A stretch of 64,000 nt of DNA from contig NZ_JAGGJF010000001.1 of the NCBI RefSeq assembly GCF_030466405.1, forward strand, positions 434,001 through 498,000, read 5' to 3'. Under the pieces are notes generated by a model. That model saw only the letters and a list, made by a program, of their open reading frames with translations. It was not told the DNA's origin and searched no databases. The translations under genes were made by a program, and so were the position numbers. This stretch comes from Pseudidiomarina terrestris. GTDB lineage: Bacteria; Pseudomonadota; Gammaproteobacteria; Enterobacterales; Alteromonadaceae. How positions within the stretch are numbered: position 1 is the first letter of the stretch; each line of letters opens with the position of its first letter. Positions 28,163 to 39,188 of the stretch are shown here, piece after piece.

Positions 28163-30499
28163 CTAGTCTTTAGTTACAGTCACACATTGGTTGCGACCCT
28201 TGGCTTTTGCTTTGTAGAGCGCTTCATCCGCCCGTGCCATCCAATGATCGAGTTTTTCGTCGTCTTTTCGAACCTCGGCAATACCGGCGCTGATGGTAAC
28301 CGAGATCTCCTCTCCTTCAACCTTAAAGGACTTCTCGGCGATCGCTTTCCGAATACGCTCCAACGCCGTCGTCGCAGCATCAACCTCGGTATGCGTAAAT
28401 AGTATCGCAAATTCCTCACCGCCAAGTCGACCGAATAAGTCCATGTCGCGCAGTTGCTTCTCCGCACGATGACAGAATTCGCGTAGCACCTGATCACCTG
28501 CAGCATGACCGTAGTTGTCATTGACGCTTTTAAAATGATCCAGATCGATAACAGCAACGGTCATGGGCACCTGGTAACGCTTAAACTCATCAAATCGTTT
28601 ACTCATGGCCTCCCAGAACACGCGCCGGTTGGCTACCCCGGTCAACTCGTCAGTGGTGGCTAATTTGCGTAGCTCTTCCACCGCCTGTCTGCGTTCTTCA
28701 TCCATCCGCCGCATATGCATCAGCGTTCCTAAGGTATCCAACATGGGTCGCAACAGACCCAGATACTCTTGTCTGTAATGCCCATCAGTATTGGCCAGCA
28801 CCATCAGTCCAACCACGTCGCGCTTAAAGTAAAGTGGCATGACCAGAGCGTTATTCAGGTCCGGTAGCACCAGCGGCTTTAACGTCAGGTCCTGCTCGGA
28901 CAGCGGCTCATGATAAAACTCGGGTTCGCCGCGCACTAACACAGAGCGCAGTACATCGCCCCCCACCTCGACCTCCAGCGACTGCTGAATCAGTTGCTGC
29001 ATCGACTCTGATTTGTGCTCTATGCTACCGAGCCTCAAGCCGTGGGCCAGCACTAGATTTCGCTGTTGCGAGTGAGCAGGTAACTCACCGATAAAACCGA
29101 CCTTACTGTCGGTCATGGTCATCAGTTTAGGCAGTGCGAAATCACAAACCTCGCTAAAGTTTTTTGCCAGCATAAACTCATTTTGCACGTGTGATACGAG
29201 CTCCAGAACCTCAGCCTGCTGCTCAAGGACTTTTTCACTGGCAATCAACTGAGTAATATCGTGATGAATGCCCATCATTTTCAGTGGACGCCCCTGGGCG
29301 TCACGAGCGATAATTTTTCCAACACTGTGAAGCCACAAATAGTGACCTGCCCGATGGCGCACACGAAACCGTGCATCGAAGCGATGCGTCACGCCTTTTG
29401 CATGCGCGCTCATCTGTTCTTGCATTTTCTCTATATCATCTGGGTGCACCAGTGTTCGCCAGTCCAGTTGCCGCTCTTGTTCAGCTGTATAGCCAGCAAG
29501 GGCCCACCACGAGTGGCTCAGCGTCAGTTTATCCGTTGGGATCGTCCACGACCAGTTAAAGAACTCGCCGGCAGCCAGCGCCAGCTCAAAATTCTGATTG
29601 GCTTCAAGCAGCGCTAATTCGAGCTCTTTACCCTTGCTGTCATCAAGTAAGTAGCCACGCACCCGTAGTACATTACCCTCTGTATCTTTATCCACCCGCG
29701 CATAATGATGAATCCAGCGAATCGTCGTGCTGTCATCTTGCTCGCCGACCACCCGATAATCCATTTCCAGAATGTCTTCGTCTCCATCGAGAACAGCGTG
29801 CATACGGCTTAACAGTTCCTCACGTTCATCAGGGTGGACGATGGACTCGTAGTTGACATCCTCACGCAGAAGGTAATCGTTGCCGTAGCCCAGCACTCGC
29901 TCGGCATTTTCGGCCACATAACTCAGATGGACGTCGGGTTCGACTCGCCATACCACAGCGCAGACCGGTCCGTGCGCGAGCACTTGCTGTTCAGCATGAT
30001 AGTTTTCCAGTTCGTAGCGAGCAGTAATCGTTTCCGATACCCACTCCGCTAATACTTCCAGATAACGAATTTTTGAGGGAGGAAATTTATAAGGGGTTTG
30101 GGAAATAACGCACAAACTGCCCAAATGGTAATCGTTATATAAGGTAATCGGAGCGCCAGCATAAGACCGCACACCGCCTTCGGCCGTCACGTAGGGATTC
30201 TCACTAAAGCGCTCATCATCGATGGCATTTTCAACGATAACGGTCTCGCCCGCCGCAACCACGTGGGTGCAGAACGAAACCTCGCGCGGGGTTTCCGGCT
30301 CATCAAATCCCACTTTAGCTTTGAACCATTGACGCTCTTCGTCGACCAGCGTGATCAAAGCCGCATCAGCGCCGAGAACTTCTTTCACCAAAGCTGTGAT
30401 CCGGTCAAAAATTGGATCTGCTTCAGTATCCAGAATGTCAAGTTGGTGCAGGAGTTGTAGACGAGCCTGCTCATTCGTAGGCAGCGGCACTGACCCCAT
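28163..30499 (-). CDS. Soluble GAF-PAS-PAS-GAF-GGDEF diguanylate cyclase
   Basis: Sensory protein of 778 residues without membrane segments. Reading along: GAF (about 20-165, with FCTHVV), PAS (about 175-290), PAS_3-type (about 300-425), a second GAF (about 435-600), then GGDEF (about 615-775). The active site is GGEEF in GRLGGEEFAILF, and the inhibitory site RxxD (RDMD) stands exactly five residues before it, so the cyclase should be active and feedback-inhibited. The input signal is unknown; the first GAF resembles those preceding many soluble cyclases. It is transcribed towards pyrC and msh, 53 bases before pyrC. A link to MshE through c-di-GMP is inference. Confidence 0.9.
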   Translation of the reverse strand: MGSVPLPTNEQARLQLLHQLDILDTEADPIFDRITALVKEVLGADAALITLVDEERQWFKAKVGFDEPETPREVSFCTHVVAAGETVIVENAIDDERFSENPYVTAEGGVRSYAGAPITLYNDYHLGSLCVISQTPYKFPPSKIRYLEVLAEWVSETITARYELENYHAEQQVLAHGPVCAVVWRVEPDVHLSYVAENAERVLGYGNDYLLREDVNYESIVHPDEREELLSRMHAVLDGDEDILEMDYRVVGEQDDSTTIRWIHHYARVDKDTEGNVLRVRGYLLDDSKGKELELALLEANQNFELALAAGEFFNWSWTIPTDKLTLSHSWWALAGYTAEQERQLDWRTLVHPDDIEKMQEQMSAHAKGVTHRFDARFRVRHRAGHYLWLHSVGKIIARDAQGRPLKMMGIHHDITQLIASEKVLEQQAEVLELVSHVQNEFMLAKNFSEVCDFALPKLMTMTDSKVGFIGELPAHSQQRNLVLAHGLRLGSIEHKSESMQQLIQQSLEVEVGGDVLRSVLVRGEPEFYHEPLSEQDLTLKPLVLPDLNNALVMPLYFKRDVVGLMVLANTDGHYRQEYLGLLRPMLDTLGTLMHMRRMDEERRQAVEELRKLATTDELTGVANRRVFWEAMSKRFDEFKRYQVPMTVAVIDLDHFKSVNDNYGHAAGDQVLREFCHRAEKQLRDMDLFGRLGGEEFAILFTHTEVDAATTALERIRKAIAEKSFKVEGEEISVTISAGIAEVRKDDEKLDHWMARADEALYKAKAKGRNQCVTVTKD

Positions 30500-32561: not shown

Positions 32562-35012
32562 TTAGCTCGTAAAGTAGTTCCTATGGAAGTCTTCTATCGG
32601 CAGCGGCTTATCGAATAAATAGCCCTGCAGCACCATGTCTGCATCATGGCGGGCAAGATAATCCACCTGTTCCTGGGTTTCCACACCTTCAGCAACGATG
32701 CGCAAGCGTAAGTTACTGGCAATGGCGACAATCGAATCGACAATAGCTTGTTGCTCCTGGTTGCCTACTGCCTGCACGAAGCTTTTATCGATTTTGAGCT
32801 CTTGCAATGGCAGACGTTGCAAATAGGAGAGTGATGAGTAACCTGTGCCAAAATCATCAATAGAGAATTGCACACCGCTTTGCTGCAGCGCCTCCATTTT
32901 ACTAATGATGTCGCCAAGGTCTTCGACAAACAGGTTCTCGGTGACCTCTAAAATCAACCGACTCGGATCTGCACCACTTTGCTGTAACTCATGTTCAATG
33001 AAGTAAACAAAGTCGTACTTCCGGAACTGCCGTGGACTGATGTTAATGGCCAACGTTAGCGGTGCCGGCAATCGTTTAAGTTCGGCGAGCGCAGCGCGAA
33101 CAATCCACTTGCCCAAGTCGACGATGAGGTCAGTTTGCTCTGCAACCGCTATGAAATCTGCCGGCGATACCATGCCGCGTGAGGGGTGATTCCAGCGCAA
33201 CAACACTTCCGCACCCACTAGTTCACCGTTTTCTCTGACCTGGGGTTGTAAATAAAGCTCAAGGCCACTGTCGTTCAGAGCCAGTCGCAGTTCACGTTCA
33301 ATCTCGTAACGCTTCTCAAGTTCAGTACTGTAAGACACGTCATAGACTGCAGTTTGGTTACCGCCAGCATCCTTCGCCGTGTGCACGGCTGTTTCTGCAT
33401 GTCGGATGATGGCGTCTGCGGATTCGGCGCACTCCTGATAAATCACAATGCCCGCACTGGCAGTCACGGATACCTGTTCACTCTGGATCAAAATTGGCTG
33501 ACCAATTTCGGCCAGTACTAATTTTACCAGCATCTGGGTATCCGCAAGCACAGACTCCTGTGAGGCCTGTTTGGCAGAGAGTAATACCGCAAATAAATCG
33601 CCGCCCAGATTGGCCACAAAAGCACCGTCTTCGTCCGCGACCAAACCTCGAATCCGGCTGGCCGTGGTTTTCAAAATAGCATCGCCAAACTGGAAACCGC
33701 GCACGTCGTTGATACGTTGCAAGCCGTCCAGGTCAAATAAAACCACTGAACCCTGACCACCGCGAGGAAGTTCCTCCAGCTGCTGCGCTAAATGCTCAAT
33801 ACAGCTGGTGCGATTGGGTAATTCTGTAAGTGCGTCGTAATAAGCCAGATATTCCACCTTCGCTTCAGCTTCGACGCGCTCAGTAATATTTGTTTTACTC
33901 GCTAAATAATGTGTAATTCGTCCGTGCTCGTCACGCAGCGGCGAAACCGTTGCCCATTCCCGAAACTCCTGGCCTTGCTTGGTGCGGTTATACAGCTCGC
34001 CCTGCCAGATCTCTCCTTCGACCAAGTTGCTCCAAAGCTGCTGATAGTCCTCTTCCGGGGTACGTCCGGAGGACAGAATGCGGGGGTTTTCACCGATAAT
34101 TTCTGCCGCACTGTAGCCTGTGGTACGTTCAAAGGCCGGGTTCACGTACTCAATCTTCCCATCCAGGTCGGTAATCATAATGCTTTCATTGGCTTGTTCT
34201 ACCGCAGCCGAAAGTTTGCGCAACTGAGTTTCACGCTTCCTGCGCTCGCGTATGGCCAGTTTAAATCGCTGGGCCAGCACACCAAATTCATTGGGGAGTC
34301 GGGTCGGCAAGGGCGCGGTCGAGGCATCACCATCACCGAATTGTGAGACTGCGAAGGCCAGTTGCTCGGCTGGTCTGACAACAAGTCGTTGCAAGCCCCA
34401 CCATAACGCAACGCCGACCACCAGTAACAGCAACATGAGTAAACTAAGGGGTACCCAAGGCAGTCTTTCCAGTAAATACCAATCTGAGGAATGACGGTAT
34501 TCTGCCACCAACAAGTTACGCTGAGTCCGTTGGGAAACCCTGATGCTTTCAAAAATCGGCGCAATAGCAATAAAGTGATCGTGTTCGGGATGGAACTCAA
34601 TAAAGGTTTTGCCGCTATAGGCGACTTGCGACAACGTTAACTGATCAAGGTCACCTAATAGATGTTGCAGCTGGCCACTGACTTGGTGTGGTTCATAGCC
34701 AGCAACAATGCTACCACTGACATCAACGATTGCCGCATTCGCCAACCGCGGGTGGACGTGCATCTCACTTAGCAGCTCTGGAATTGAAGTCTCACGGTCG
34801 GCGGTGTACATGCGGTTAAACGAGCCCTGTGCCATGGTCAGGTTACTGAGTAACTCCAGTCGGGCTGAGCTCAACGCAGTTTTTTGCTGTGCGTTAATAA
34901 GGAAGTACATCAACCCGAGGACGATGGCAAAGATCGCCACCACGACCGGTATGGTTAACTGCACAGAGAGCTTATTCCACCAATGCAAACGCCTCATTCC
35001 ATAGCTCCGCAT
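32562..35012 (-). CDS. Membrane PAS-GGDEF-EAL protein, probable c-di-GMP phosphodiesterase
   Basis: Inner-membrane signalling protein of 816 residues. Membrane helix 1 is at about residues 15-38, a periplasmic sensor of about 140 residues follows, and helix 2 is at about 178-200. Then HAMP-like (205-255), PAS (265-385), GGDEF (395-550) and EAL (560-815). The GGDEF site is degenerate (GGDLF), so cyclase activity is unlikely. The EAL site reads EVL but keeps Glu, and the other catalytic motifs are intact: LEVTEN, SIDDFGTGYSS, LKIDKSFV, AEGVET. I infer an active phosphodiesterase. Its start overlaps by 19 bases the end of the binding-protein gene upstream, so the pair is probably one sensory unit. 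Confidence 0.88.
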   Translation of the reverse strand: MRSYGMRRLHWWNKLSVQLTIPVVVAIFAIVLGLMYFLINAQQKTALSSARLELLSNLTMAQGSFNRMYTADRETSIPELLSEMHVHPRLANAAIVDVSGSIVAGYEPHQVSGQLQHLLGDLDQLTLSQVAYSGKTFIEFHPEHDHFIAIAPIFESIRVSQRTQRNLLVAEYRHSSDWYLLERLPWVPLSLLMLLLLVVGVALWWGLQRLVVRPAEQLAFAVSQFGDGDASTAPLPTRLPNEFGVLAQRFKLAIRERRKRETQLRKLSAAVEQANESIMITDLDGKIEYVNPAFERTTGYSAAEIIGENPRILSSGRTPEEDYQQLWSNLVEGEIWQGELYNRTKQGQEFREWATVSPLRDEHGRITHYLASKTNITERVEAEAKVEYLAYYDALTELPNRTSCIEHLAQQLEELPRGGQGSVVLFDLDGLQRINDVRGFQFGDAILKTTASRIRGLVADEDGAFVANLGGDLFAVLLSAKQASQESVLADTQMLVKLVLAEIGQPILIQSEQVSVTASAGIVIYQECAESADAIIRHAETAVHTAKDAGGNQTAVYDVSYSTELEKRYEIERELRLALNDSGLELYLQPQVRENGELVGAEVLLRWNHPSRGMVSPADFIAVAEQTDLIVDLGKWIVRAALAELKRLPAPLTLAINISPRQFRKYDFVYFIEHELQQSGADPSRLILEVTENLFVEDLGDIISKMEALQQSGVQFSIDDFGTGYSSLSYLQRLPLQELKIDKSFVQAVGNQEQQAIVDSIVAIASNLRLRIVAEGVETQEQVDYLARHDADMVLQGYLFDKPLPIEDFHRNYFTS

Positions 35013-35920
35013 TCGGTCAGTGGCACCACGGCATCATGCATACCGCTGGCAACCAGGTAGTTCGCCGTGGCGGGCATATCCTTTTGCAACACACGCTCAA
35101 GCGCACTCTGTTGCTCGGAACGCGTCACAAAATGCACCCCTTGCAGGGCCTTTTCCAGCTCTTCTGTAGAGCTACCGGTTAACTCAATAAGCCCCTGCCA
35201 GAACTCCTGCTCACGCTCCTGTAACTGCGCCAACGCCTGCGGCCAGAGACTTTGCTTTAACCGCTGCACCAACGGTTTGGCCCTGGACCAGGCCGCCTTA
35301 TGTAAAATCAAGATATCCACCACTGAGACATCCGGATGCGAAGAGTCAAAAATGACTTTCGCTCCACTTTCACGCAGTTTCTCGATAAAAGGTTGATAAG
35401 TGATAATAGCGTCCACTTTTCGCTCGCTGAATGCGTCAAGGTGTTGGGTCGGCAACAGAATTCGCGTCGTGACATCGGTCATGTTCAGGTCATGCAGGGT
35501 TAACCAGCGCGACAGCATGTAACGGGCGATAGTACTATCTTCAAGACCTACCGTGATGGGTTCTTTGGCCTGCGGCTGCCAATCATTCTGCACCATCACC
35601 GCATCGGCACCCATGGAACGGTCGAGCACCATGGCAATGCAATAGTCACCATCGGTGAAGGTATTGACGCTGAGGGCGTTATCCAGAGTTACAAAGGCAC
35701 CACTTACGGCCTCGTTGCCCAGCATACGCATTACGCTTACATCTGAAGCCAGCATCACGGTTTTCAGACCTGGCGGGATAAGCTCGGGGTCAACTGCAGC
35801 GAGCGTATAGATCGGCATGGCGCCCAGCCAAGCATTACCTACAATTACCACGTCATCTTTAGGTGGACTGCAGCCAAGTAAGGTAAAACTGACAAGACAG
35901 CTGAGTATAAATCGCATCAC
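34994..35920 (-). CDS. Lipoprotein periplasmic ligand-binding protein (NMT1/TauA-like)
   Basis: Exported lipoprotein of 308 residues. The lipobox LLGC places the acylated residue at Cys17. The mature part looks like an ABC-type substrate-binding protein of the NitT/TauT/THI5-like kind: VVIVGNAWLGAMPIY near the start, then MLASDVSVMRMLGNEAVSGAFVT across the hinge region and DAIITYQPFIEKLRESGAKVIFDSS in the second lobe. No ABC permease or ATPase for it is adjacent. Instead the next gene, overlapping by 19 bases, is a membrane GGDEF-EAL protein with a periplasmic sensor. I therefore infer it is a signalling receptor rather than an importer. The ligand is unknown. Confidence 0.83.
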   Translation of the reverse strand: MMRFILSCLVSFTLLGCSPPKDDVVIVGNAWLGAMPIYTLAAVDPELIPPGLKTVMLASDVSVMRMLGNEAVSGAFVTLDNALSVNTFTDGDYCIAMVLDRSMGADAVMVQNDWQPQAKEPITVGLEDSTIARYMLSRWLTLHDLNMTDVTTRILLPTQHLDAFSERKVDAIITYQPFIEKLRESGAKVIFDSSHPDVSVVDILILHKAAWSRAKPLVQRLKQSLWPQALAQLQEREQEFWQGLIELTGSSTEELEKALQGVHFVTRSEQQSALERVLQKDMPATANYLVASGMHDAVVPLTECGAME

Positions 35921-36037: not shown

Positions 36038-37117
36038 TTAATCGAGTCGTTTTTTAAAGCGTAAGGTCGCCAGTACCATAAATACTGCGAAAAAAGCCAG
36101 AAGTGGCCAAATTTCCATGTGTAATTCGCCGATCTCTGTACCGCGCACCAGAATCCCCCGCGACAATCGCACAAAGTGCGTCAGTGGTATCACTTCGCCG
36201 ATCCACTGTGCTGCCCGCGGCATCCCCTCAAAAGGGAACATGAATCCTGACAACAATATCGATGGCAAAAACGTAAATACGGTCAACTGCATGGCTTCAA
36301 ACTGAGTTTTGGCAAATGTGGAAACGGTCAAGCCCAGCGCCAGCGAAGCGAGAATAAACAACATCGACGCCAGATAAATGTCTATAACGCGACCACGCAC
36401 TGGAACATCAAACAGCCACTGACTCACCAGCACAATTAAGGTCACCTGAATCAGACCGATCAGTACGTAGGGCAAAATTTTGCCTAACATCAGCTCAACC
36501 CGTTTCACCGGGGTAGTAATTAACATTTCCAGGTTACCGCGCTCACGTTCGCGCACGATGGCGATAGCGGTGAACAGCACCATGGTCATGTGCAAGATAA
36601 CGCCGATTAATGCCGGGACGATGTTCACCGGCGACCTGCGCTCTGGGTTGTAATAGGTCCGCGGTTCGAACAAAGGCGAACGCAGCTGCTGGCCCGGCAG
36701 CGGCATTTCGCTTAAGCCCCGGGCGATTCGTTCCACCGTCGGATCTGAACCATTGATCAGTAACTGGCCCACCGGACGCTCAGCATCGATGACGCGCCGC
36801 TCAAAATCGGGTGGGATAAAAATCCCGACATCAATCTGGCCGGTATCCAGCAACTCTTTAAGCTCTTCTGGTCCGCTTGCAGCTCTGGAGATACTGATCA
36901 CCTGGCTGGCATCTGCAGACGCAACCAGTTGCCTGGAGAGGGTGGTATTGGCGTGGTCAGCTACAGCCGCGTTGACATTGCGCACATCCAGATCGATAGC
37001 ATAGCCAAACAGTAGGATTTGTAATAGCGGTACACCGACGATCATGCCAAAGGTAAGACGGTCTCGTTTCAGTTGCCGTACTTCCTTTCCGGCAATCGCC
37101 AGCAGTCTACGCAGCAT
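36038..37117 (-). CDS. ABC-2 type export permease (YbhR/YbhS-like)
   Basis: Membrane protein of 359 residues, last gene of a three-gene export operon. It opens MLRRLLAIAGKEVRQLKRDRLT with the usual KExxQLxRD motif, then one membrane segment (TFGMIVGVPLLQILLFGYAID). A periplasmic domain of about 150 residues follows, then five helices. IVRERERGNLEMLITTPV is the conserved cytoplasmic ERExGTLE-type block. An earlier in-frame start (37168) lies inside the ATPase gene, so I use the ATG at 37117, which leaves an 11-base overlap. The related E. coli system has two permeases; only one is present here. Confidence 0.88.
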   Translation of the reverse strand: MLRRLLAIAGKEVRQLKRDRLTFGMIVGVPLLQILLFGYAIDLDVRNVNAAVADHANTTLSRQLVASADASQVISISRAASGPEELKELLDTGQIDVGIFIPPDFERRVIDAERPVGQLLINGSDPTVERIARGLSEMPLPGQQLRSPLFEPRTYYNPERRSPVNIVPALIGVILHMTMVLFTAIAIVRERERGNLEMLITTPVKRVELMLGKILPYVLIGLIQVTLIVLVSQWLFDVPVRGRVIDIYLASMLFILASLALGLTVSTFAKTQFEAMQLTVFTFLPSILLSGFMFPFEGMPRAAQWIGEVIPLTHFVRLSRGILVRGTEIGELHMEIWPLLAFFAVFMVLATLRFKKRLD

Positions 37118-38063
37118 GGCCAGGCTCTCCATCCTTACGGTTGGGCCGAGTTGCCACCACGAAAACATCTTCCAGATTGGCGGTGACAGCTGTGACCTCT
37201 GCCTCGACCTCGGCCTCGTTCAGGGCCTCACGTATGAGTTTTGCTGGCTCTGCAAGGTTCTTGTCGGTAAGTGCATGCAAGCGCGCACCGAGCTGCGCGA
37301 CGCTCTGGACTCCGTCAATGCCTTCCAGGCAATCTCTGGCGGCCCGCGGTGACGAGGTTTCGATTTCGACAACACCGGCGTCGATCTCACTGATAAGATC
37401 CCGGGGCCTGCCTTCAGCAACAAGTCGCCCTTTATTAAGAATAGCTAACCGGTGACACCGCTCCGCTTCATCCATGTAATGGGACGATACCAGTACCGTG
37501 GTGCCATCTTCAGCGAGCCCAAATAAGATATCCCAAAAGTCCCGCCGGCTTTGTGGGTCGACCGCTGAGGTCGGTTCGTCAAGAATAAGTAGCCGCGGCC
37601 GATGTAGCGTTGCGCCGGCCAGCGCCAGCCGCTGTTTCTGGCCTCCGCTTAAGGTCGCCGCAAACTGATGACGTTGCTCATTCAGCCAATAACGCTCCAG
37701 CGCACCATCGATGGTTTTGCTCAGCTCCTTGCCGGGCACTCCGTACACTGTTGCTAAAAACTTCAGGTTCTCGGCAACGGTCAGATCTTCGTAAAGTGAA
37801 AATTTCTGCGTCATGTAGCCGATTTCGCGCTTCACTTGCTCGGCCTGACCCGGGACCTGATAGCCCAGGACCTCAACCTCGCCGGAGCTGGGGGTGAGCA
37901 AGCCACAAAGCATTCTAATCGCCGTTGACTTGCCCGATCCGTTCGGTCCCAAAAAACCGTAGATAGCCGCTTCCGGAATCTCCAGATCGACACTGTCGAC
38001 AGCGGTTAAGTCGCCAAAGTGTTTCGTGAGTCCTTTAGCGGTAATGGCCACTGACTCACTCAT
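37107..38063 (-). CDS. ABC exporter ATP-binding protein
   Basis: ATPase of 318 residues driving the export permease encoded downstream. Walker A is GPNGSGKSTAI (about residues 37-47), the signature is LSGGQKQRLALA, and Walker B is LLILDEPTSAVD. The H-loop follows in VLVSSHYMDEAERC. The C-terminal 80 or so residues form an accessory domain found in drug/multi-ligand exporters. The ATG at 38063 begins MSESVAITAKGLTKHFG; the longer frame up to 38126 lies inside the adaptor gene and is Cys/Arg-rich, so I reject it. Confidence 0.92.
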   Translation of the reverse strand: MSESVAITAKGLTKHFGDLTAVDSVDLEIPEAAIYGFLGPNGSGKSTAIRMLCGLLTPSSGEVEVLGYQVPGQAEQVKREIGYMTQKFSLYEDLTVAENLKFLATVYGVPGKELSKTIDGALERYWLNEQRHQFAATLSGGQKQRLALAGATLHRPRLLILDEPTSAVDPQSRRDFWDILFGLAEDGTTVLVSSHYMDEAERCHRLAILNKGRLVAEGRPRDLISEIDAGVVEIETSSPRAARDCLEGIDGVQSVAQLGARLHALTDKNLAEPAKLIREALNEAEVEAEVTAVTANLEDVFVVATRPNRKDGEPGHAA

Positions 38064-39027
38064 TGCTCGTCTCCGCGCTGCCTGGCAGCACCACCATGCG
38101 CACCGGGATGCCACTTGGCAGCTCACTGGCGTCGTTCAGATCAATTTCCACCAAGTAGCTAAGACGCTCGGCGTCATGTTCGGTGAGCGCAAAATAAGGC
38201 GTGTAAGAGGCTTCACCGGCAACAAAGCGAACTTCACCTTCGCGCTCACCGTGCCCATCAACGTTCACCCTGACCTTATCCCCTGCCTGCAGCTGATGAT
38301 GCAGCGCTGCCGGGACGTAAACCCTGGCATAGGGAGCTTGATCAGTGGCCTGCAAAATGACCAACGCAGCACCTGCCGGCGGCCGTTCGCCCAGCTCAAA
38401 TGGCAACGCCTCGACGCGCGCGGCACGGGGTGCCGTTTGCACGAGACGTTTGACGGTGAGTTGCTGCCGGGTGACGGCGGCCTCCGCCTCACGCACCGCT
38501 GCGCGTGCCTGCTCTAACTGCTCAACGGTCGTACCAGCCAATAAAGCGGCCAATGCTGCCCGCGCGGCAGCGACCTGACCTGCAGCCTGCTCCCGCGCAT
38601 TGCGGGCGCGCTCGAGTTGTTCACGGCTGGCAAGGTTTTGTTGTTCAAGTGGCGCAATACGCTGCACGTCTTGCCGAGCCGTCTGCAGTTCCGCCTCCGC
38701 CGCGGTAAGATGGCCTCGAGCTTCGTCGATCGCTTCTTGCCGCGGTCCGCGCACCAGTTCGTCTAAGCGTCGCCGAACACGGTCGGCAGCGGCCGTGAGT
38801 CGCGCCAGCTCCGCATTTACCCGCTCATTATCCTGCTCAATCAGTGTCTCGCCGACGGTGACCTGCTGTCCCTCGCGCACATGAATCGCCGTTACCGGTT
38901 CACCCAGTTCCGCGCTGAGCTGGATACGGTCACGTTCGAGTGTGCCCACCACCATAAATTGTGTAGGGTCGCTGCAGCCGCTAAGAAATAAGAGTGTCAG
39001 CATGAAAAGCCGGCGAATATGAATCAT
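38056..39027 (-). CDS. Lipoprotein HlyD/AcrA-type membrane fusion protein
   Basis: Periplasmic adaptor of 323 residues for the ABC exporter. It starts at the ATG at 39027, preceded by AGGAGACAGG. The signal ends in a lipobox LSGC with Cys18. The biotinyl-lipoyl half-motif is seen in HVREGQQVTVGETLIEQD. A long alpha-helical hairpin, rich in Ala, Arg, Glu and Gln, covers about residues 75-215, and a beta-barrel domain follows. YbhG of E. coli is the nearest familiar protein. Gene order adaptor-ATPase-permease with overlaps of 8 and 11 bases shows a compact operon. Cargo is unknown; an outer-membrane channel must be supplied from elsewhere, as no TolC-like gene is near. Confidence 0.88.
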   Translation of the reverse strand: MIHIRRLFMLTLLFLSGCSDPTQFMVVGTLERDRIQLSAELGEPVTAIHVREGQQVTVGETLIEQDNERVNAELARLTAAADRVRRRLDELVRGPRQEAIDEARGHLTAAEAELQTARQDVQRIAPLEQQNLASREQLERARNAREQAAGQVAAARAALAALLAGTTVEQLEQARAAVREAEAAVTRQQLTVKRLVQTAPRAARVEALPFELGERPPAGAALVILQATDQAPYARVYVPAALHHQLQAGDKVRVNVDGHGEREGEVRFVAGEASYTPYFALTEHDAERLSYLVEIDLNDASELPSGIPVRMVVLPGSAETSNE

Positions 39028-39188
39028 GACCTGTCTCCTGAGGGAAACTTCGTTGGCGGTGTTGGCGAATCGAATAGCCTGAAGTCGCACTGTTGCTGCC
39101 GTTGGATGTTCCTATTTAATAAGCATTTTATGGCTCAAGTCAACCGACCTAAAGGCGCAAGGATTGCCGCAGAGCCTGTCCAGTCAAT

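Follow-up and report, generated by a model that had tools for sequence, protein, structure and literature searches.

A TauA/SsuA-fold lipoprotein and an adjacent PAS-GGDEF-EAL membrane protein of Pseudidiomarina as a candidate two-gene sensor

The gene pair and its surroundings

The window, by which we mean the whole stretch of 64,000 nucleotides analysed here, holds an adjacent pair of genes on the minus strand, one encoding a lipoprotein and the other a membrane protein with GGDEF and EAL domains. Their host is a marine bacterium of the genus Pseudidiomarina. Both open reading frames lie where the initial annotation had placed them, and the pair which it described is real. The locus comprises the following features:

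34994–35920, minus strand: lipoprotein of the TauA/SsuA-fold solute-binding class, 308 aa, starting at GTG 35920 or alternatively at ATG 35917
35870–35872, minus strand: codon of the lipobox cysteine C17 (TLLG-C, next residue Ser), read from the sequence
34994–34997, minus strand: ATGA shared by the lipoprotein stop and the likely membrane-protein start, read from the sequence
32562–34997, minus strand: membrane PAS-GGDEF-EAL protein from its likeliest start (811 aa), placed from relatives and the GGAG spacing
35012, minus strand: first in-frame ATG of the membrane protein, giving 816 aa
34473–34901, minus strand: periplasmic PAS/Cache-type domain, residues 38–180 counted from 35012, recurrent partner of the lipoprotein family
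33903–34217, minus strand: PAS domain, residues 266–370 (Pfam)
33354–33845, minus strand: degenerate GGDEF domain, residues 390–553 (Pfam and motif)
33591–33605, minus strand: GGDLF in place of GGDEF, residues 470–474 (alignment)
32604–33296, minus strand: EAL domain, residues 573–803, with the catalytic residues EVL, N, E, DD, KID, E and Q (Pfam and alignment)
36038–39090: ABC-2 exporter operon (HlyD, ATPase, permease), 118 bases upstream of the pair, named from its sequences and not by family search

An overlap of 19 bases between the two genes, as first proposed, would hold only for a start at ATG 35012. Since ATG 34997 overlaps the lipoprotein stop by four bases (ATGA), follows a GGAG located 7 bases upstream and coincides with start codons at the same place in many relatives, the overlap is most likely 4 bases long. 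The earlier remark that no ABC transporter genes are near is literally untrue, as an ABC-2 exporter operon ends 118 bases upstream. Its exporter type, together with a permease matched beside the pair in just one of 18 relatives examined, makes it look like a local insertion, and for the latter reason it was rejected as a partner. In most relatives examined, ssb is found within about 1 kb upstream of the pair. At 18/18 Idiomarinaceae loci from a scan of genome contigs, a transmembrane GGDEF-EAL gene is immediately preceded by a gene for a solute-binding protein (SBP), with a short gap or an overlap between the two.

Among 26 Pseudidiomarina genomes, 17 carry both parts and in 8 neither was found, one fragmented genome being left unscored. 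Wherever one of the two genes was detected, i.e., in 17 genomes, the other lies close by, which puts the pairing beyond chance, and three of the 8 genomes without the pair feature an empty adenosine-deaminase/ssb site. Within the genus, the pair is present or absent as a unit.

The lipoprotein and its putative receptor

The predicted fold of the lipoprotein (pLDDT 93.5) matches TauA with a Z score of 29.4 (277 aligned residues, rmsd 2.4), so that, judged by its model, it is a binding protein of the TauA/SsuA fold. Pfam NMT1_2 scores just above its cut-off (25.6 versus 24.7 bits), while the best NCBIfam model, TIGR03427 (“urea ABC SBP”), reaches 55.2 bits, and the lipoprotein as well as the ten relatives scanned all stay below the equivalog cut-off of 333.9. 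With TauA/SsuA and NMT1_2 as best matches, it does not group with the polyamine binders of the PotD/PotF type. A single-sequence search returned no solved structure for it. No relative was found on viral contigs; plasmids yielded one, in Niveispirillum, directly before an EAL gene whose product gave no match to the periplasmic-domain profile described below. In E. coli, an Asp directly after the lipobox cysteine acts as an inner-membrane retention signal. Here C17 is followed by Ser, and Asp is rare at this place (4/17 sequences of the genus and 3/70 others), which would allow an outer-membrane location of the lipoprotein, apart from its receptor.

In the membrane protein, PAS, GGDEF (105.6 bits) and EAL (229.2 bits) exceed their Pfam cut-offs and HAMP remains below. 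The degenerate GGDEF and the intact EAL motifs noted in the initial annotation were both confirmed across the window protein and 18 relatives: the catalytic Glu of GGDEF is absent in 19/19 sequences, the window protein reading GGDLF and thus lacking a usable diguanylate cyclase motif ([S/G]GDEF), whereas the catalytic residues of EAL domains, E(xL), N, E, DD, K, E and Q, are kept in 19/19. Four metal ligands of the EAL domain have been named (PMC9993111). As far as such motifs can tell, the enzyme should break down c-di-GMP and should not make it. The EAL domain might instead be an inactive, c-di-GMP-binding effector domain similar to LapD, the lipoprotein then setting how the receptor uses c-di-GMP and not its breakdown. 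The uniformly degenerate GGDEF would suit such a role, and a domain layout alone is no proof of activity; an effector would, however, have no need for the catalytic residues that all 19 sequences retain, and we regard this option as very improbable.

The periplasmic domain matches no Pfam family over its cut-off, CHASE8 staying under its gathering score (E 0.0079; 16.9 versus 27 bits). Its moderately confident model (pLDDT 81.5, pTM 0.58) resembles the extracellular domain of WalK (Z 13.9, 135 aligned residues, rmsd 3.2) and, in addition, ligand-binding PAS/Cache domains including CitA, TlpQ and PctD, all taken from a VIA-align list to which further folds might be added. According to profile search and hhalign, this domain is conserved, with homologues in EAL, GGDEF and kinase partners alike. 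Residues invariant in an alignment of 19 rows include E65, E69, V72 and H73 (numbering of its first row). A profile built from the domains of other partners matches 17/17 domains of the genus (E ≤ 1.5e-7), and hhalign gave 95.6% for the genus domains versus those of kinase partners and 98.2% versus those of c-di-GMP partners; in the reverse direction, the genus profile matches only 11/45 domains of other partners. Outside the training set of the profile, 24 further matches were obtained. Five of them stand beside this lipoprotein family and eight directly downstream of a PhnD-like binding protein, so that two classes of binding protein have this domain as a recurrent neighbour; the remaining 11 have no recognised binding protein alongside, and the domain is consequently not always in need of one.

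Both the latter matches and the PAS/Cache fold would fit a domain that binds a small ligand of its own, like other Cache domains, with the lipoprotein either modulating the signal as an additional input or assisting assembly. Within the genus, however, every copy of the domain that was found is accompanied by the lipoprotein (the fragmented genome apart), and its best solved match, WalK, has a further entry as a complex model together with the YycH protein. We consider a ligand of its own unlikely and favor docking of the lipoprotein on this domain.

A recurrent partnership across output types

The initial annotation had reckoned with orthologues located mostly next to ABC permease/ATPase genes, which would have spoken for an importer. 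This is not what the wider family looks like. Of 88 typed loci of the strong family (defined by a line at 203 bits), 83 adjoin receptor genes, namely 59 of the GGDEF/EAL and 24 of the histidine-kinase type, and a search covering the TauC-like type detected no such permease across the 88 stretches fetched. Two relatives below this line are likewise of receptor type: L103, with an EAL partner, scores 119 bits, and L181, with a kinase partner, falls just short of 203 bits. The arrangement varies: the kinase lies upstream of the binding-protein gene at L102, and the GGDEF-EAL frame begins 760 and 626 bases downstream at L153 and L160, respectively. No partner type was assigned to five of the 88 loci. 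L114 runs into a contig end, its next frame holding the periplasmic domain; at L126 the next gene encodes periplasmic domain, HAMP and PAS only; at L127 the next frame has no Pfam family; L159 has a GGDEF response regulator upstream instead; the fifth is L142. Across the class, 73/272 sampled genera have a match to the binding-protein profile, a count that takes in importer types, and 59 of the places matched in this survey, mostly the stronger ones, were fetched and typed.

Could the lipoprotein nevertheless be an orphan importer subunit that feeds a permease encoded elsewhere, its operon with the EAL gene being incidental or serving only co-regulation? It shares its fold with TauA, SsuA and TIGR03427-like importer proteins, some of which are riboswitch-linked, and six weaker relatives do adjoin TauBC-type importer genes. 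An ABC ATPase also lies upstream at three of the 88 loci: a TOBE-type frame 181 bases from L142, a frame cut by the contig end 459 bases from L130 (kinase downstream), and a protein with two ABC domains 124 bases from L110 (kinase downstream), the last of which we take to be ABC-F and not an importer. Unlike these six, however, the window lipoprotein has no adjoining importer genes, and the strong family is free of TauC-like permeases as far as searched. A cysteine occupies the C17 column in 87/90 receptor-clade rows versus 1/6 importer-type rows (L191), besides the unassigned L185, and the pair comes and goes as a unit in the genus. Importer and receptor types part with a single change on the tree (branch support 92, from a quick tree with long branches flagged). 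Because of the neighbours and the tree, we rejected the importer as main reading and judge it quite improbable, leaving a sensory role as the preferred one.

The binding-protein tree also bears on what is kept within the partnership. Over the same 57 rows, the type of periplasmic domain requires 2 changes (shuffled mean 11.9, minimum 8 in 300) and the output type 10 (shuffled mean 16.2, minimum 13), a test from which all rows of the genus were omitted, together with 12 receptor rows that carry neither of the domain labels. Among the 13 rows labelled “large domain”, Phosphonate-bd was confirmed by Pfam in seven, L129 was scanned without a match and five rest on weak phmmer matches. In 18 Idiomarinaceae sequences, lipoprotein identity correlates better with that of the periplasmic domain (partial r 0.68) than with that of the EAL domain (0.16), tree and correlation counts all being inflated by lineage effects. 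As the domain type follows the tree while outputs swap, lipoprotein and periplasmic domain look like a conserved unit, and tree and correlation lend indirect support to a putative contact between the two.

Proposed mechanism, known systems and ligand

We propose, at a probability of about 0.7, that both genes encode parts of a single sensor. Held by its lipid anchor, the binding protein would bind a small periplasmic metabolite and, when in one particular state, dock on the PAS/Cache-type domain of the receptor, thereby altering a two-helix transmembrane signal and with it the c-di-GMP phosphodiesterase activity of the EAL domain. By analogy, the docked state would lower this activity. The PAS and degenerate GGDEF domains may serve as further inputs or as a relay, and lipoprotein plus periplasmic domain could represent a portable input module placed before EAL, GGDEF and histidine-kinase outputs.

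The closest precedent is NspS-MbaA of Vibrio cholerae and Sinorhizobium meliloti, where the binding-protein gene overlaps that of a two-helix GGDEF-EAL receptor as in the window, and NspS acts on MbaA from the periplasm (PMC9993111, PMC8967002). The overlap amounts to 16 bases in V. cholerae, whose MbaA has EVL and conserved metal ligands (PMC9993111); EVL is found likewise in the window protein. NspS, however, is a polyamine binder of the PotD/PotF type, whereas the window protein combines a TauA/SsuA fold with a lipobox; MbaA, which reads SGDEF, can also make c-di-GMP, whereas the GGDEF domain in the window lacks its catalytic Glu. A second c-di-GMP precedent is ScrABC of Vibrio parahaemolyticus, whose operon encodes both the dual enzyme ScrC and its periplasmic controller ScrB (PMC10269520). 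That operon also includes scrA, the gene for a signal-making enzyme, whereas an exporter permease lies upstream of the window pair. Gene context speaks against membership in the ScrABC type, as the genes scanned upstream of seven distant pairs comprised four M48 peptidases and no aminotransferase. RmcA of Pseudomonas aeruginosa similarly uses an SBP-type domain as input of a c-di-GMP receptor (PMC8846402), there as a fused SBP_bac_3 domain and here as a separate lipoprotein of another SBP family. The suggestion that a binding protein of a different class is paired with an EAL protein in the manner of NspS-MbaA thus holds for the receptor neighbours and the class; as a kind it is already general in print, SBP-controlled receptors having been described for at least 13 SBP families (PMC9602780). 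Our literature search found no paper on this lipoprotein/EAL pair or on the TauA-fold family as receptor partners.

With respect to the ligand, the NMT1/TauA label given initially stands for the fold and not for taurine or sulfonate, which the fold would suggest. Of the family residues S102, G104, D106 and E127, none is present in TauA or SsuA, both of which carry Glu in place of D106; the position of W31 is Gln in TauA and a gap in SsuA. A guanidine-I riboswitch is located directly upstream in 5/9 importer-type or unassigned relatives, among them the importer SBP L186, and these five share W31, G33, D100, S102, G104, D106, P177, S193 and D202 with the window lipoprotein. Riboswitch context and conserved residues thus argue against taurine or sulfonate and make a guanidinium-type compound the ligand lead, which for the lipoprotein family is a guess from sequence. 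This lead is weakened, as at gathering score the riboswitch was found at 0/40 receptor-clade loci (flanks up to 1.5 kb; three of these, L063, L075 and L076, without assigned partner) and in 0/26 genomes of the genus. Moreover, the acidic residue 81, Glu in 72/73 other receptor-clade rows, is Asn in 17/17 rows of the genus, where the ligand may accordingly have shifted. The broader idea, doubtful at present, is that the family consists of periplasmic receptors for guanidinium compounds and shares its ancestry with riboswitch-controlled (guanidine) importers; through a recurrent docking domain unnamed in Pfam, these receptors would signal guanidine outside the cell, or a relative of it, to c-di-GMP enzymes and histidine kinases.

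Many c-di-GMP receptors have no assigned signal; here, the sensing part is a soluble and screenable protein that stays with a single type of periplasmic domain whether the output is EAL, GGDEF or a kinase, and a ligand for one family member would provide a lead for many receptors. The riboswitch-linked relatives give a first ligand class to try. Protein-based guanidine signalling is described as an open question in a 2025 review, according to which future work may reveal guanidine-binding signalling proteins (PMC12186494). If the guanidinium reading proved true, these receptors would be of the kind foreseen there.

Gene pair and predicted enzymatic output

The binding protein and its putative receptor are encoded by adjoining genes:

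34994-35920, minus strand: lipoprotein, 308 residues
32562-35012, minus strand: membrane protein with PAS, GGDEF and EAL domains

The initial annotation let the two genes overlap by 19 bases, which requires that the membrane protein starts at ATG 35012. Its frame holds a second candidate start, ATG 34997, which appears more likely, since it gives a 4-base overlap (ATGA) with the lipoprotein stop, has a GGAG 7 bases 5' and corresponds to a start codon in many relatives. In Pfam, the lipoprotein gave only a borderline match to NMT1_2, and the periplasmic domain of the membrane protein matched no family above the cut-off. In predicted structures, the lipoprotein (pLDDT 93.5) best matches TauA (Z 29.4, 277 aligned, rmsd 2.4), and the nearest solved domain to the periplasmic domain (pLDDT 81.5, pTM 0.58) is the extracellular domain of WalK (Z 13.9, 135 aligned, rmsd 3.2); by this model, it is of the PAS/Cache type.

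All 19 proteins compared (window and 18 relatives) conserve the EAL residues and lack the Glu of GGDEF (GGDLF in 17), from which we infer that the receptor should only break c-di-GMP. Two genes from the pair, the window encodes a GAF-PAS-GAF-GGDEF protein with GGEEF (28163-30499). Between the pair and ssb lies an ABC-2 exporter operon (36038-39090; HlyD, ATPase, permease), apparently a lineage-specific insertion, the permease being matched beside the pair in one of 18 relatives (P. halophila).

Partner genes across the binding-protein family

The queries used to type the neighbours of 99 family loci were TauABC, EnvZ, ArcB, OmpR and Tsr of E. coli together with the window's GGDEF, EAL and PAS domains; Pfam served for odd cases. 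At 83 of the 88 loci scoring at least 203 bits with the family profile, the lipoprotein lies beside a GGDEF/EAL (59) or histidine kinase gene (24), the other five being assigned to neither type, and none of the 88 stretches holds a TauC-like permease. Without the 16 loci of the genus, a receptor-type partner was found in 67 of 72. Lipoprotein and partner frames overlap or lie at most 100 bases apart in 79 of 80 measurable pairs, spacing being taken from stop-to-stop frames and overlap lengths being upper bounds. Among the 11 loci below 203 bits, six are of importer type, two adjoin a fatty-acid-desaturase-family gene, two are of receptor type (L181, L103) and one was left unassigned.

An ABC ATPase frame occurs within 500 bases at three of the 88 loci, namely L110 (two ABC domains), L130 and L142. 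At L130 and L142 it is upstream of a receptor-clade lipoprotein gene; L142, whose ATPase is TOBE-type and which has no recognised receptor downstream, may represent a return to transport.

Further arrangements were observed. L152 carries a run of five consecutive signalling genes (chemoreceptor-like, PAS-GGDEF-EAL, lipoprotein, large kinase, EAL protein). At L155, L161, L165 and L159, the lipoprotein gene immediately follows one for a GGDEF response regulator, and at three of these loci it is followed in turn by a histidine kinase gene; such an arrangement might form an SBP-kinase-cyclase relay. On an alphaproteobacterial plasmid (Niveispirillum, L231), a family lipoprotein (234 bits) lies 9 bases before an EAL gene; the periplasmic domain of the EAL protein escapes the profile.

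The periplasmic domain and inheritance of the pair

In 61 partners, 140-169 residues separate two predicted transmembrane helices. All 17 genus domains are recovered by a profile built from 45 non-genus domains (E between 1.3e-17 and 1.5e-7); the reverse search with the genus profile recovers 11 of these 45, and searches between kinase-borne and c-di-GMP-borne domains succeed in both directions (27/28 and 15/17). The type of domain (Cache-like versus larger, mostly PhnD-like) switches two times on the binding-protein tree, where shuffling gives a mean of 11.9; for output type, the same 57 rows give 10 changes and a shuffled mean of 16.2. Among 18 sequences from Idiomarinaceae, the identity of the lipoprotein correlates with that of the periplasmic domain over and above PAS, GGDEF and EAL (partial r 0.68, versus 0.16 for EAL). 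Lineage effects are present in both the counts and the correlation.

Used as a probe, the domain gave 24 hits outside the training set: five beside the lipoprotein family, eight immediately preceded by a gene for a PhnD-like binding protein (L196, L200, L201, L202, L203, L225, L227, L230) and 11 with none recognised. At seven other loci (L130, L131, L132, L135, L146, L164, L174), a Phosphonate-bd domain sits inside the receptor, next to a TauA-fold lipoprotein.

A contig scan of genomes identified 19 loci: 14 in Pseudidiomarina, two in Idiomarina (including I. loihiensis), one in an Aliidiomarina MAG and two in gammaproteobacterial MAGs. An EAL partner lies directly downstream in 18, and a histidine kinase in the last, a gammaproteobacterial MAG. 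Within the genus, lipoprotein and receptor are inherited as a unit: 17 of 26 genomes carry the lipoprotein and the same 17 the periplasmic domain, the genome of the window being 2.63 Mb and 99.96% complete. Neither was found in eight of the 26 (six of them 99% complete), of which three (G022, G024, G015) show an empty site where adenosine deaminase adjoins ssb; in the fragmented, 77% complete G001, the EAL end of the gene remains beside adenosine deaminase, so this genome is counted neither among the carriers nor among the eight. In a P. indica metagenome copy (L101, genome G009), the lipoprotein gene has an in-frame TAA and the EAL partner frame is open.

Proposed docking mechanism and candidate ligand

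By analogy, the likeliest reading, to which we give a probability of about 70%, is that ligand would govern whether the binding protein docks on its receptor, as described for NspS on MbaA (PMC9993111, PMC8967002). The pair differs from NspS-MbaA in its binding-protein class, its lipobox and the lack of a usable cyclase motif. The lipobox position holds Cys in 87 of 90 sequences of the receptor clade versus one of six importer types, and the residue after C17 is Ser. By the sorting rule of E. coli, this Ser would place the lipoprotein in the outer membrane, and such an anchor would be a problem for docking.

Relatives outside the receptor clade offer a lead on the ligand. In an Rfam scan, five of nine importer-type or unassigned relatives (L182, L183, L184, L186, L189) showed a Guanidine-I riboswitch where the gene for the binding protein starts; in L183 and L184, a fatty-acid-desaturase-family gene adjoins the SBP in place of importer genes. 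All five share W31, G33, D100, S102, G104, D106, P177, S193 and D202 with the receptor-clade majority, and three share E127 (Asn in L183 and L184); TauA and SsuA have different residues at most of these positions. The riboswitch was found at none of 40 receptor-clade loci and in none of the 26 genus genomes. Position 81 holds Asn in all 17 genus rows and Glu in 72 of the 73 receptor-clade rows from outside the genus. Because of these observations, a guanidinium-type ligand is a lead for the lipoprotein family, and a weaker one for Pseudidiomarina.

PMC9602780 describes control of receptors by SBPs as a general theme that involves at least 13 SBP families. According to a c-di-GMP review (PMC8846402), SBP_bac_3 (RmcA) is the one domain from the periplasmic-binding-protein clan that has been studied in c-di-GMP networks. 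The literature searched yielded no description of the present TauA-fold family as receptor partners.
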